This document shows positions 37,624 to 45,227 of a stretch of DNA of 64,000 nt, in pieces (the first letter of the stretch is position 1; every line of letters begins with the position of its first letter). The DNA is taken from contig NZ_CP060495.1 of the NCBI RefSeq assembly GCF_014334095.1, forward strand, positions 2,976,501 through 3,040,500, written 5' to 3'. Made by a program: the position numbers and the translations under genes. The DNA comes from Novosphingopyxis iocasae (GTDB taxonomy: Bacteria > Pseudomonadota > Alphaproteobacteria > Sphingomonadales > Sphingomonadaceae). The notes below the pieces were generated by a model that was not told where the DNA came from, did no database searches, and saw only the letters and a list, made by a program, of their open reading frames with translations.

Positions 37624-38307
37624 ATGGCGCAAGGCGAAAAAAAGAATGATCGACCGATCGAGCGAATCCAGCAGAATGTGCTGGCTCGCAGCGAACGGCG
37701 ACTGCTGAATTGGCTCTGCGCGCGGCTCCCCGCTTGGGTGACCCCCGATCGGCTGACCACATTCGGGATGGTCGGATCGCTCGCCATCTTTCTCGGTTAT
37801 GCGCTGAGCGGAGAAGGGCGCGACTGGCTGTGGCTCGCGGTTGCCGGTTATTTCGTTCAATGGTTCGGCGATTCGCTGGACGGCAGCATCGCGCGCTGGC
37901 GGAAAATCGAGCGTCCGCGTTTCGGCTATTTCATCGATCACAGCTGTGACGGCATCACGACGCTGCTGATCCTCGCGGGGCTGGGCCTGAGCCCCTATCT
38001 TCGCCTCGACATCGCGCTGCTGACGCTATCGGGCTATCTGCTTCTGTCGATCCACGCCTATCTTTCGGTCCATGTGATGGGCGAGATGAAGCTGTCATAC
38101 CTCTCCGCCGGCCCCACGGAATTGCGATTCGTGCTGCTGGGACTGACGGCGATGATGTATGCGATGGGTCCGACAGCCAATTGGGTGGCGGGACTGTCGC
38201 TGTTCGATTGCCTTATCGGCGCGGTCGGTGTGCTGTTCATCGTACTGTTCGTGATTCAGACGATGACCGTGGCGCAGCGACTCGCTGCGGGCGGTGAGCA
38301 ACGCTAA
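37624..38307 (+). CDS. CDP-alcohol phosphatidyltransferase family protein
   Basis: A 227-residue integral membrane enzyme with about five or six helices that would join a CDP-linked lipid or alcohol to an acceptor. The catalytic motif DGSIARWRKIERPRFGYFID continues into HSCD, giving the full DGxxARx8GxxxDxxxD signature. The acceptor is unknown. It is flanked on both sides by opposite-strand genes for small acidic lipoproteins. Confidence 0.9.
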   Translation: MAQGEKKNDRPIERIQQNVLARSERRLLNWLCARLPAWVTPDRLTTFGMVGSLAIFLGYALSGEGRDWLWLAVAGYFVQWFGDSLDGSIARWRKIERPRFGYFIDHSCDGITTLLILAGLGLSPYLRLDIALLTLSGYLLLSIHAYLSVHVMGEMKLSYLSAGPTELRFVLLGLTAMMYAMGPTANWVAGLSLFDCLIGAVGVLFIVLFVIQTMTVAQRLAAGGEQR

Positions 38308-40771: not shown

Positions 40772-41866
40772 TCAGTTCAGACTGTCGAAGCCCGGGCCGG
40801 TCGTGGCGGAAGGCTCCTTGGGCAGAGCGAACTTCATCAGCAGGGTTCGCTGGAAGGCGTTGAAATTGTCGTCGCTGGCGATCCAGACGATGTTTTGTCC
40901 GCCCTCCTGCGTGACGGCCAACGCTTCCATGTTATCGACCGCGAGGGGCGATTCGAGCTGGGCCAGCAGCGTGCCGCGCACCCGGGCGCCGGGACGGATC
41001 GCGGTGGCGTCGATCACCGTCAGCGCCGCCGAGAGGCCGGTGGGAAAGGCGAGGCGGCGGTTCAGCACCAGCAGCCGCCCGTCCGGCAGCACCTTGGCAT
41101 CGGTGGCGCGGAAACCCTCGGGCGGAAGATAGGCGAAGCGTTGCGGCTCCTGCTTCACACTGGGCTGACCTGGCCAGATGAGCCCTTCATAGCCGCCGCC
41201 TTGCGCCTTCCCTTTTTCGCTGATGACGATGAAGCGGCCATCGGCAAGGCGGGCCAGCGCCTCGCCTCCGCCATTGCTGGGCCAGCGCTTCATCGCCTTG
41301 GGGCGGATCGTCTCCAGTTCCCGGCTGAGGTCCGGCGAATAGCGGCGTAGCGAAGAGCGGTTTTCAAAGCTGATCCAATATTCCCCGGTCTCCGGCACCC
41401 GCACGATCGATTCCGAATCGCGCTCCTCATATTCCGGTTCTTCCTTCTGATTGCCGCGCCAGGGCAGCGGACGGATGAACGGATCGACGATCGCGCCGCC
41501 CGGGGCGATGCGGAAGTCAATCAGCGTCGCGCCGTCGCCCAGCGCCACGAAACGGCCATCCGGCAGCGCTTCGAGCGAGGAGATACCGCCGAACCGGTCG
41601 TTCTCGCTTTCCAGCACCCAGGCGCCCAGAAAGCGCAGTTTTCCCAGCTCGGTGCGCGAAGGATTGCGCGGATCAAGCGGAATGGAATTGCTGGAAATCA
41701 CCTGATCATTATTAGGTCGGTGCTGCCGATCGCCGCTCAGCGCCATCCAGGATAGCGCGATGAGCAGGGCGATAACCAGCAGGGTGCGCCGCCGCTTAAA
41801 TGTCAATCTGTTAATCTTAATGACGCTTTTCCTGAACGGAGGATAAAAGAGACATTCAGCGGCCAC
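40772..41866 (-). CDS. Esterase-like/phytase-like beta-propeller protein
   Basis: Up to 364 residues. A membrane anchor or signal (LLVIALLIALSWMAL) is followed by a propeller-type region with GGISSLEALPDGRFVALGD, RDSESIVRVPETGEYWIS, GGGEALARLADGRFIVISEK and VDNMEALAV. These fit the family annotated as esterase-like activity of phytase. The outermost start is GTG at 41866; a TTG at 41806 just before the basic RRR and the hydrophobic run is equally plausible, and neither has a clear ribosome site. Confidence 0.75.
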   Translation of the reverse strand: MAAECLFYPPFRKSVIKINRLTFKRRRTLLVIALLIALSWMALSGDRQHRPNNDQVISSNSIPLDPRNPSRTELGKLRFLGAWVLESENDRFGGISSLEALPDGRFVALGDGATLIDFRIAPGGAIVDPFIRPLPWRGNQKEEPEYEERDSESIVRVPETGEYWISFENRSSLRRYSPDLSRELETIRPKAMKRWPSNGGGEALARLADGRFIVISEKGKAQGGGYEGLIWPGQPSVKQEPQRFAYLPPEGFRATDAKVLPDGRLLVLNRRLAFPTGLSAALTVIDATAIRPGARVRGTLLAQLESPLAVDNMEALAVTQEGGQNIVWIASDDNFNAFQRTLLMKFALPKEPSATTGPGFDSLN

Positions 41867-41889
41867 TCAACGCCAACTGTCCATAACAA

Positions 41890-42058
41890 CATGGTCGATG
41901 GGGCAAAGCCTTCGCGTTTCGGAAGGCGGGTTTTGCTTCATCGCTACCCTTTTTCGCCCGGTGGTTCCCGCGTTTCGGGGCCGGGTGACAGGGGAACCCT
42001 CGCGTTGCGTAACCGGGGGTGGGGGTCGGCACGTCGAGACGCCGGCCCCCAATTTTTT
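41890..42058 (+). ncRNA. Putative structured RNA or regulatory leader before putA
   Basis: No gene is visible in 41867-42239. The + strand can form a hairpin GCAAA-GCCTTC/GAAGGC-TTTGC (41903-41936). It then has interleaved pairs CCCGG (41957-41961)/CCGGG (41981-41985) and GGTTCCC (41963-41969)/GGGAACC (41992-41998), which together would make an H-type pseudoknot. A strong terminator follows at 42021-42058. CGCGTTTCGG occurs twice as an apical element. It could be a stand-alone small RNA or an attenuator for putA. No known family consensus was matched. Confidence 0.35.
42021..42058 (+). terminator. Strong terminator inside the putA leader region
   Basis: GGGGGTCGGC (42021-42030) pairs over 10 bp (one G-U) with GCCGGCCCCC (42041-42050) and is followed by AATTTTTTT. 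It lies 180 bases before the putA start and no + strand gene ends before it. Confidence 0.75.
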
Positions 42059-42239
42059 TGGGTCGCGCGCGGCGCCCGGTCGTCTCGCATCTCTTCGCGC
42101 CCGAAGTCTTGAAAAGCTGTGGAATGCACCCCCGGGCTTTTCCGCTTTCCTTGCCATACCCCCGGTGAACATGCGATTGGGAGCCTTTCCGGAGAACTTC
42201 TGTTCCCCTTACTCCCCCAATCTATTCCACTGGACTTAC

Positions 42240-45227
42240 ATGATCAGAAGCGACGACCTACGCGGCGAATTGCGCGACCTGCACCGCAAGGCAGAGCCCG
42301 ACGTGCTCGCCCCCCTCGTACTCCAGGCGAAGGTGGGCGCGGAGGAACGCGCGCTGATTCTCGGTAAGGCCCGCAATCTGCTGGTCGACCTGCGCGAGGG
42401 GCAGTCCAAGGGGTGGATCAACCAGTTTTTGCAGGAATATCGCTTGGGCACCGAAGAGGGCACTGCGCTCCTTTCGCTGGCCGAGGCGTTCCTGCGCGTG
42501 CCCGATGCCTATACGTCGGACCGGCTGATTTCGGACAAGATGGGCGGCGCGGACTGGGGCGCGCATGCCGGTGCGTCCGCCAACCGAATGGTCAACAGCG
42601 CCACCTGGGGCCTCGTCCTGGGCAAAGCGGTGGTCGGCGGATCGCCGCGAGCCAATATCCTGCGCCGCCTGATCGCCCGCAGCGGAGAGCCGTTTGTGCG
42701 CAAGGCCGTGCATCAGGCGATGAAGGTGATGGGCGAAGTGTTCGTCATGGGTCGCAATATCGAAGAAGCGATCGCCCGCATGAACAAGAAGGAGAACCGC
42801 GATTTCGTGGCCTCTTTCGACATGCTGGGCGAAGCGGCGCGCACGATGGACGACGCTTATCGCTATTTCGAATCCTATCGCCATGCCGCCGATGTCGCGG
42901 GCGCGGCGGGCAATGGGCATAGCATCTCGGTGAAGCTGTCCGCTCTCCACCCGCGCTATGAGCCGGCACGGGCGGGTATCTGCATTCCGATCATTTCCGA
43001 AATGGTGCTCGATCTGGCGCTGCGCTGCCGCGAATCGGGTGTCGCGCTGACCGTCGATGCCGAGGAATCCGAGCGGCTGATGATCAGCCTGGATATCATC
43101 CGCGATGTCGCCCGCCATCCCTCGCTGGAGGGCTGGGACGGGTTCGGCATGGCGATCCAGGCCTATTCCAAGCGCGGCTCCGCCGTCGTCAAATGGGCCG
43201 ATGCGCTGGGCGAGGAAACCGGCAACAAGATCAACACGCGCCTCGTCAAGGGCGCCTATTGGGATACCGAGATTAAACATACGCAGGAAATGGGCCTGTC
43301 CGATTTCCCGCTGTTCACGCGCAAGATCGCGACTGATGTCAGCTATCTGGCCTGCGCGAAGGAAATGATCCGGTCCAAGAACCTGGTCCCCGCCTTTGCC
43401 ACGCACAACGCGCTCACCATCGCGACGCTGCTGCACTGGACGTCGGAAGCGGGTCTTTCGAAGGACGCGTTCGAATTCCAGCGCCTGCACGGCATGGGCG
43501 AGGGATTGTACGAGCGGATGGCCCGCGAACAGGGTTACCGCGTGCGCACATACGCCCCCGTCGGCGGCCATGCGGACTTGCTCGCCTATCTCGTCCGGCG
43601 GCTACTGGAAAACGGCGCCAACACCAGCTTCGTGCACCAGTTCACCTCCAGCGATGTGGATGAGGATGAGCTTCTCGCCGATCCGGTGGAGAAGGTGGAG
43701 GCCGTGGGCGGCACGCGCCATCCCGGCATCGCGCTGCCCGAAGACCTGTTCATGCCGGAGCGCAAGAACAGCAAGGGTCTGGACCTGGAGGACCGCGAGC
43801 TTCTCGAAGGGTTGGCAGAACGGCTGCGCAAGCCCGTTCCTGTGCAACTGCGCGGGGAGAAGGACGTCGATGAATGTATCGACAATTGCCACAAGGCGTT
43901 TCCGGCCTGGTCCAAGACCACCATCGAACATCGCGCCGCATGCCTCGAAAAGTTCGCCGACCTCATGGAGGAGCGGCATGAGGACCTGATGGCCGTGATG
44001 GTCGATGAGGGCAGCAAGAACATCCCCGATGCGCTGGGCGATGTGCGCGAGGCGGTGGATTTCTGCCGCTATTACGCAGCGCAGGCGCGCAAGAACCTGA
44101 AGCCGATCGACCTGCCCGGGCCGACGGGCGAACAGAACGTCCTGCGCATGGAAGGTCGCGGCGTCTGGGCTTGTATCGCGCCGTGGAACTTCCCGCTGGC
44201 GATCTTCGTCGGCCAGGTCGTCGCCGCCCTCGTCACCGGCAATACTGTGGTGGCGAAGCCCGCCCCGCAGACGCCGAAGATCGCCGCGCTCGCCGTGCGT
44301 CTGATGCGCGAGGCGGGCGTGCCGCGTAACGCGGTGCAACTCGCCGTCGGCGGGGCCGAGACCGGCGCCGCGTTGACCTATGACCGGCGCATCGCGGGCA
44401 TCGCCTTCACCGGCTCCAACGCCACGTCGAAGGTGATCGCGCGCAGCCTGGTGGCTGAAGACGACCGCCCGCTGATCCCGCTGATCGCGGAAACCGGCGG
44501 CATCAACGCGATGATCGTCGATTCAACCGCGCTGACCGAACAGGTGGTGCGCGATGTGCTGATCTCCGGCTTCCAGTCGGCCGGGCAGCGCTGTTCGGCC
44601 ATGCGCCTGCTCCTGATACAGGAAGAGGTGTACGATCGTACGATCACGATGCTGAAGGGGGCGATGGACGCTCTCGTCATCGGCGATCCGCATGAGCCCG
44701 ATACCGATATCGGCCCGGTGATCGATGAGCCGAGCTATTACAAGCTGAATGCCTATCGCGAGGCATGGCACAAGAATGTGATCCACGCCTGCGAGGTGCC
44801 GGGCAAGGACAAGGGCCTGTTCGTCCCGCCCACGCTGATCAAGCTCGACAGCATGGATGAGCTGGACAAGGAATGGTTCGGCCCGATCGTCCATGTCGCC
44901 ACCTGGAAGGGCGGCGAGCTGGAGAAGACGGTCGAGCGCGTGAATGCCAAGGGCTACGGCCTCACCATGGGCATCCACAGCCGCATCCTGCGTGCCGCCG
45001 ATCAGGTGGAAAAGACCGCGGAGGTGGGCAATCTCTACATCAACCGCTCGATGATCGGTGCGATCGTAGGCTCTCAGCCCTTCGGCGGCGAAGGGCTTTC
45101 GGGCACCGGCCCGAAGGCGGGCGGCCCGCATTATCTCTACCGCTTCTGCGCCGAGCGCACGACCAGCACCGATCTCACCAGCGCCGGCGGCAACGCCACG
45201 CTGCTCAGCATGGGTGACGGAATTTAA
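42240..45227 (+). CDS. putA: Bifunctional proline dehydrogenase/P5C dehydrogenase
   Basis: A 995-residue enzyme that oxidises proline to glutamate in two steps at the membrane face. The FAD-dependent proline dehydrogenase barrel (about residues 130-450) shows RLVKGAYWDTEIK and FQRLHGMGEGLYERM. The P5C dehydrogenase half (from about 500) has PWNFPLAIF, AETGGINAMIVDS and catalytic Cys785 in SAGQRCSAMRL. There is no N-terminal ribbon-helix-helix DNA-binding domain, so it cannot repress itself as E. coli PutA does. The ATG at 42240 begins the conserved region; upstream codons run through the leader terminator. Confidence 0.95.
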   Translation: MIRSDDLRGELRDLHRKAEPDVLAPLVLQAKVGAEERALILGKARNLLVDLREGQSKGWINQFLQEYRLGTEEGTALLSLAEAFLRVPDAYTSDRLISDKMGGADWGAHAGASANRMVNSATWGLVLGKAVVGGSPRANILRRLIARSGEPFVRKAVHQAMKVMGEVFVMGRNIEEAIARMNKKENRDFVASFDMLGEAARTMDDAYRYFESYRHAADVAGAAGNGHSISVKLSALHPRYEPARAGICIPIISEMVLDLALRCRESGVALTVDAEESERLMISLDIIRDVARHPSLEGWDGFGMAIQAYSKRGSAVVKWADALGEETGNKINTRLVKGAYWDTEIKHTQEMGLSDFPLFTRKIATDVSYLACAKEMIRSKNLVPAFATHNALTIATLLHWTSEAGLSKDAFEFQRLHGMGEGLYERMAREQGYRVRTYAPVGGHADLLAYLVRRLLENGANTSFVHQFTSSDVDEDELLADPVEKVEAVGGTRHPGIALPEDLFMPERKNSKGLDLEDRELLEGLAERLRKPVPVQLRGEKDVDECIDNCHKAFPAWSKTTIEHRAACLEKFADLMEERHEDLMAVMVDEGSKNIPDALGDVREAVDFCRYYAAQARKNLKPIDLPGPTGEQNVLRMEGRGVWACIAPWNFPLAIFVGQVVAALVTGNTVVAKPAPQTPKIAALAVRLMREAGVPRNAVQLAVGGAETGAALTYDRRIAGIAFTGSNATSKVIARSLVAEDDRPLIPLIAETGGINAMIVDSTALTEQVVRDVLISGFQSAGQRCSAMRLLLIQEEVYDRTITMLKGAMDALVIGDPHEPDTDIGPVIDEPSYYKLNAYREAWHKNVIHACEVPGKDKGLFVPPTLIKLDSMDELDKEWFGPIVHVATWKGGELEKTVERVNAKGYGLTMGIHSRILRAADQVEKTAEVGNLYINRSMIGAIVGSQPFGGEGLSGTGPKAGGPHYLYRFCAERTTSTDLTSAGGNATLLSMGDGI

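Follow-up and report, generated by a model that had tools for sequence, protein, structure and literature searches.

SgrS/SgrT is a dual-function RNA in which a small open reading frame (ORF) and an RNA part share one transcript, and in some species the ORF has been lost. Compared with SgrS/SgrT, the RNA family described here carries its ORF, where there is one, in front of the RNA part, and it has no known target. Small RNAs derived from 3′ UTRs, as reviewed in PMC9438474, are likewise structured RNAs at mRNA 3′ ends, and MicX is described there as having its own promoter and sharing its genomic location with the processed MalH; relative to the 3′ UTR-derived RNAs, the promoter-like element of the mRNA has here been kept and several lineages lack the intervening ORF. 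In Caulobacter, ChvR (PMC6237742) is another short alphaproteobacterial small RNA that has several hairpins and is transcribed from a promoter of its own; it differs in being 84 nt long, lying beside recF, and being under ChvI, and it was compared by description with the RNA considered here. BjrC68 (Rfam RF02353) is also a terminator-bearing alphaproteobacterial small RNA.

The window, a 64,000-nucleotide stretch of the Novosphingopyxis iocasae genome (contig NZ_CP060495.1), contains a structured region before putA that the original prediction read as a transcriptional attenuator, a riboswitch, or a terminated small RNA. Most likely, this region makes its own small structured RNA and is not a putA switch. 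The proposed search with Rfam covariance models yielded no family: at the gathering cut-off, Rfam 15 matched only a tRNA elsewhere in the window and nothing in ten loci, and the weak matches were far below threshold. These included a whole-model match to BjrC68 in the g98 locus L175 (17.5 bits, against a gathering score of 39); at E ≤ 0.5, BjrC68 matched neither the window locus nor that of its sister species. Within the titles and abstract beginnings covered, subscription papers being outside the scope, the literature on sphingomonad small RNAs and on glycine-zipper-linked or UTR-derived RNAs contained work on Zymomonas and no description of this RNA.

Structure of the predicted RNA

The features of the locus are as follows:

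40772–41866, − strand: divergent phytase-like esterase gene (PF13449, by Pfam), the most constant neighbor, with a similar gene upstream at 67 of 80 loci
41853–41870, + strand: promoter-like direct repeat CATTCAG-N6-CTCAA; a similar element precedes the glycine-zipper ORF or the RNA in relatives
41882–41887, + strand: −10-like box CATAAC, corresponding to CATAA in relatives
41893–42059, + strand: predicted stand-alone small RNA of ~165 nt, from the promoter-like element to the T7 tract, with its layout kept in the sister species
41896–41943, + strand: HP1, apex CGCGTTTCGG, fold of −25.7 kcal/mol; a hairpin with changed letters in the sister genome G001
41955–41987, + strand: HP2, apex CCCG-CGTTT-CGGG, from the fold; all 4 apical pairs intact in G001, one of them compensatory
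41997–42019, + strand: HP3, CCCTCG-CGTTGCGTAAC-CGGGGG, the conserved core hairpin, covarying across the family, loop NGTNGCGTAW
42021–42059, + strand: terminator hairpin of 10 pairs and T7 tract, covarying in relatives, whose tails are T-rich against background
42240–45227, + strand: putA (by Pfam), not a constant neighbor; beside the RNA at 2 of 80 loci

On the + strand of the window, the fold of positions 41890–42062 was better than those of all 200 dinucleotide shuffles (z −3.79). The terminator originally placed at 42021–42058 was confirmed, with a stem of 10 pairs including one G-T (42021–42030 with 42041–42050), a 10-nt loop, then AA and a T7 tract at 42053–42059; a 10-bp stem with T7, and tails that are on average T-rich in relatives, are what an intrinsic terminator of a small RNA gene would show. 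A simple terminator scanner did not list 42021–42059 because its loop limit is 8, and its sole listing was 41908–41927, with 1.7 terminators expected by chance. The hairpin first described at 41903–41936 holds and is longer, spanning 41896–41943, and the apex said to be shared was indeed found in both hairpins, CGCGTTTCGG occurring at 41913 and 41969 and, far off, a third time in the window at 37916. The shorter apex of HP1 and HP2 in the window, CGCGTTTCG, could derive from the HP3 apex minus GCGTA.

Two further pairings in the original prediction fared less well. Of the interleaved pairs suggested to form a pseudoknot (41957–41998), the GGTTCCC/GGGAACC pair exists in the window, but the arm is broken in the sister species, where 4 of 7 pairs are left with no compensation; likewise, the GAAAAGC/GCTTTTC pair behind the terminator (42111–42117 with 42136–42142) is present in the window but not kept in the sister species. 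An open frame, 41898–45227, runs unbroken from within the RNA stretch into putA and looks like chance.

Promoter-like element

The RNA is predicted from the promoter-like element to start near 41893. The pattern CATTCAG-N5/6-CTCAA followed by CATAA was matched in 25 of 80 loci and not in the remaining 55. Of these matches, 18 come from ORF-bearing loci and stand ahead of the ORF (−463 to −635), and seven come from ORF-less loci, where the element immediately precedes the RNA (−74 to −135). The element precedes the ORF where there is one and the RNA where there is none, so the window carries the ORF-less form of the transcription unit. The g98 loci preserve TTCAG and the CATAA box well, whereas the second half-site was seen by eye in only 6 of 20, and this partial matching, together with the full pattern in only 25 of 80 loci, counts against the reading as a small RNA gene. 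So does a sigma-70 scan, which found no promoter; the recurring element marks a candidate promoter of the RNA. The combined pattern of repeat and −10-like box had one match in its own genome and none in the control.

Two wider interpretations of the element were rejected. A CATTCAG regulon was suggested by 14 matches (the window's own included) against two in the control, yet of the 13 others, the 12 listed all fall within open frames of >150 codons on one strand or the other. Control by ChvI was considered because the element resembles a response-regulator direct repeat; the Caulobacter ChvI motif given in PMC9731502, TTGC-N3-GCAA, differs from it.

Conservation in the sister species and across the family

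A 441-base query against 59 genomes matched only its own genome and G001, the only other member of the genus found, whose stretch is identical to that of Novosphingopyxis baekryungensis DSM 16222 (L005). Both species share the order esterase-like gene, RNA stretch, and putA. HP3 and the terminator show 94% identity over 64 bases; the 195-base piece containing them shows 77%, and another piece beyond it 72%. All pairs of HP3 (6/6) and of the terminator stem (10/10) are kept in G001, as are those of the HP2 apex, and HP1 and HP2 refold there despite changed letters. The T7 tract is not kept (ATTTCCCC there), which counts against the reading as a small RNA gene.

Searching 298 family genomes with a 76-base core gave a third clear relative, G118 (81%, E 1e-6); at E ≤ 1, some match was obtained in 225 of the 298, nearly all at chance level. 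At E ≤ 0.05, a covariance model of HP3 and the terminator hairpin (R1), built from these three sequences (window, G001, and G118), matched 68 of 298 family genomes, which represent 30 of 96 genera, and gave a single match in 63 of the 68. The 230 family genomes with no match count against a small RNA gene, and absences from the model searches are soft because strict filters were used. A second model (R2), built from 30 loci, had matches in 61 of the 296 genomes searched in the order, the matches listed all being from the same family and the share of the 296 outside the family being unstated, and 2 of 240 genomes in a class-wide sample, both again from this family. When R2 was run on 87 fetched loci (L187, a duplicate of L133, was omitted), 80 matched at E ≤ 0.001, and the other seven were excluded from later counts; the 20 g98 loci among those fetched come from 22 g98 genomes with an R2 match.

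The original prediction proposed stem conservation in relatives as a check, and HP3 and the terminator do covary across the family: in an alignment of 81 rows (80 loci), 14 of 16 pairs have compensatory (double) changes, 98.3% of cells are paired, and none of 500 shuffles scored as high. That alignment was fitted to the covariance model, so a plain MAFFT alignment of the 20 g98 loci was also leaned on, from which RNAalifold recovered both HP3 and the terminator. Behind the terminator hairpin, T residues average 6.2 per 10 nt for g98 and 4.6 for the other loci, the background being 1.8. Conserved, covarying structure occurs here with no ORF, as the window, the sister species, and the 20 g98 loci gave no glycine-zipper match. 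One weak match, L212 1980–2065 (− strand, 34.3 bits), has a far longer HP3 loop and may be a diverged form or a false match.

Genomic neighborhood

Among the 80 loci, with flanks mostly of 1.5–2.5 kb, 67 have an esterase-like gene lying divergently upstream on the opposite strand; a glycine-zipper ORF immediately precedes the RNA in 43 (by one tblastn query), and 37 have a convergent cobT. A glycine-zipper C-terminus is visible by eye in some query-negative loci, such as L125 and L129, and the g98 esterase matches are only 24–47% identical to the esterase of the window, so their orthology is unsure. The true start of the window's esterase gene may lie inside the frame at 40772–41866. PutA falls within the flanks of two loci, both from the genus of the window. 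From the other side, among 80 putA loci in named genomes (E ≤ 5; few of the same family), the RNA was found at one, that of N. baekryungensis; 79 have no RNA, so that its structure is not conserved upstream of putA across these genomes as a putA riboswitch or attenuator would require. By these neighbor counts and the putA-locus search, the RNA belongs to the esterase, glycine-zipper, and cobT locus rather than to putA. For the check suggested earlier, a comparison of the region upstream of putA in related genomes, the putA-locus search thus gave only the same-genus locus.

Pfam places proline dehydrogenase and aldehyde dehydrogenase domains in PutA; the sole DNA-binding family at E ≤ 0.001 is PF14850 (residues 60–168), which bears the name 'DNA-binding domain of Proline dehydrogenase' and is presumably distinct from the ribbon-helix-helix repressor domain. 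Positions 42145–42190, between the terminator and putA, contain blocks common to the window and the sister species and form a candidate putA promoter region. Because parts of it are kept in the sister, a predicted putA promoter within 42060–42240 is likely.

Absence of the glycine-zipper ORF

In ORF-bearing relatives, the module of HP3 and terminator follows the stop codon of the glycine-zipper ORF. No glycine-zipper match was obtained in the window, the sister species, the 20 g98 loci, five g112 loci (L133, L181, L194, L198, and L203), or L115, the last judged ORF-less by eye and with no neighbor identified there. In the genus of the window and in the g98 and g112 loci, the promoter region and module remain and the ORF is missing. 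With no ORF before it, the window RNA does not share the 3′ end of an mRNA as a 3′ UTR-derived small RNA would. In an esterase tree of 61 rows (six of 67 were excluded for an extracted protein of <150 aa, two of them g98), the ORF state changes four times, at least three of these forced by well-supported branches; 'has ORF' was assigned there from the esterase-RNA distance and not from a protein match, 7 of the 41 rows so labeled having no match to the single glycine-zipper query, and ORF gains are possible because the root is not fixed. Relocation of the glycine-zipper gene within the genome was also considered and rejected: three protein matches were found (E 9.7e-6, 1.2e-4, and 0.5), the first two at loci with no loop pattern.

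The HP3 loop and additional hairpins

HP3 has the stem CCCTCG/CGAGGG, with variants, around a loop near NGTNGCGTAW; a strict rule (≤2 mismatches, four pairs) holds in 67 of 80 loci and fails in 13. In 10 of the 80, against 1.4 expected, an extra hairpin of HP3 type with nearly the same loop stands ≤60 nt upstream of the module (L109, L116, L125, L167, L185, L193, L194, L195, L202, and L205), as if HP3 duplicates repeatedly. The g98 loci have a 5′ hairpin with a C/U-rich loop near UUUCCCCCUUUU, picked by a best-stem search, with at least six pairs and changed pair types in 18 of 20 (L186 has four pairs and L199 five); it was absent from the RNAalifold structure of the 20 loci. L175, at ~1570–1640 on the − strand, exemplifies the stand-alone g98 version with this hairpin.

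In G000 and G001, the sole perfect 11-base complement of the HP3 loop was the gene itself, against 4 and 2 matches for the reversed control, so any pairing would have to use a short stretch, unless a protein is the partner. The 11-base complement of the g98 C-rich loop gave seven matches in six g98 genomes, five at the RNA gene and two elsewhere (G220 and G465), and its control is uninformative because the pattern reads the same backwards. In the window's own genome, the HP3 loop pattern has 56 matches at ≤1 mismatch against 141 for the reversed control; by eye, the module accompanies neither of the two exact matches, one of which is within a long frame.

Alternative explanations

A stand-alone, trans-acting small RNA gene at 41893–42059, with its own promoter and terminator, representing the ORF-less form of the unit and brought beside putA by rearrangement, is in our judgment the probable explanation. 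A leader halting transcription before putA on proline or another signal was one competitor, as the RNA, with its strong terminator, is separated by 180 nt from putA, which follows on the same strand, and the sister species has this layout too. However, 78 of the 80 loci have no putA in the fetched flanks, the putA loci are almost devoid of the RNA, and neither the pseudoknot nor the T7 tract is kept in the sister; the leader is very unlikely, and we reject it on gene order and the broken pseudoknot. The small RNA option of the original prediction fits better, given the promoter-like element, the covarying hairpins, the terminator, and family relatives at loci usually devoid of putA.

The absence of the ORF from the window, and the module being the 3′ end of a glycine-zipper gene in many relatives, would also suit a relic, that is, a terminator and 3′ UTR left by a lost gene, perhaps terminating but functionless as RNA. 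Such a relic is unlikely in view of a module 94% identical between two species inside a piece only 77% identical, and of an ORF-less form that persists in 20 g98 loci, where HP3 is nearly invariant and the additional 5′ hairpin shows changed pair types. HP3 directly follows the stop codon where the ORF exists, and its only role, with none in trans, might be to protect the glycine-zipper mRNA at its 3′ end. Yet several lineages keep HP3 without the ORF, and a stabilizer would presumably not need a conserved loop sequence; we regard this as quite unlikely. Tandem hairpins in 10 of 80 loci recall a REP-type repeat or a DNA-level site, but the loop pattern is not enriched in its own genome, there is usually one match per genome in a recurring gene order, and the pairs show compensatory changes, all of which make a repeat element extremely improbable.

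Proposed mechanism and implications

Under the small RNA gene interpretation, the transcription unit of relatives would comprise a promoter, an ORF for a glycine-zipper (small envelope-type) protein, HP3, and the terminator. With the ORF present, HP3 and the terminator would form the 3′ end of the glycine-zipper mRNA; with the ORF absent, the promoter and RNA part would yield a stand-alone small RNA, whose production in N. iocasae is predicted. The active part is likely to be the loop that HP3 exposes (NGTNGCGTAW; two copies in some species), through which the RNA is predicted to act in trans, either by short base pairing or by presenting the HP3 hairpin to an RNA-binding protein. PutA would adjoin the RNA through rearrangement and is probably read from a promoter downstream of 42059.

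More tentatively, and with less than even confidence, the RNA may be a regulatory RNA found throughout the Sphingomonadaceae that is dual-function in genomes retaining the ORF. At least three losses (or gains) would have affected its protein half, the promoter and RNA half persisting, and the HP3 loop, single or multiplied, would serve either as a docking site for an RNA-binding protein or as a short seed common to the family. The analysis removes a false lead on putA control and defines an RNA family with covarying structure, a recurring locus, and a covariance model. Its ORF-less loci are natural experiments in how an mRNA becomes a stand-alone small RNA in sphingomonads, a question that they make testable.
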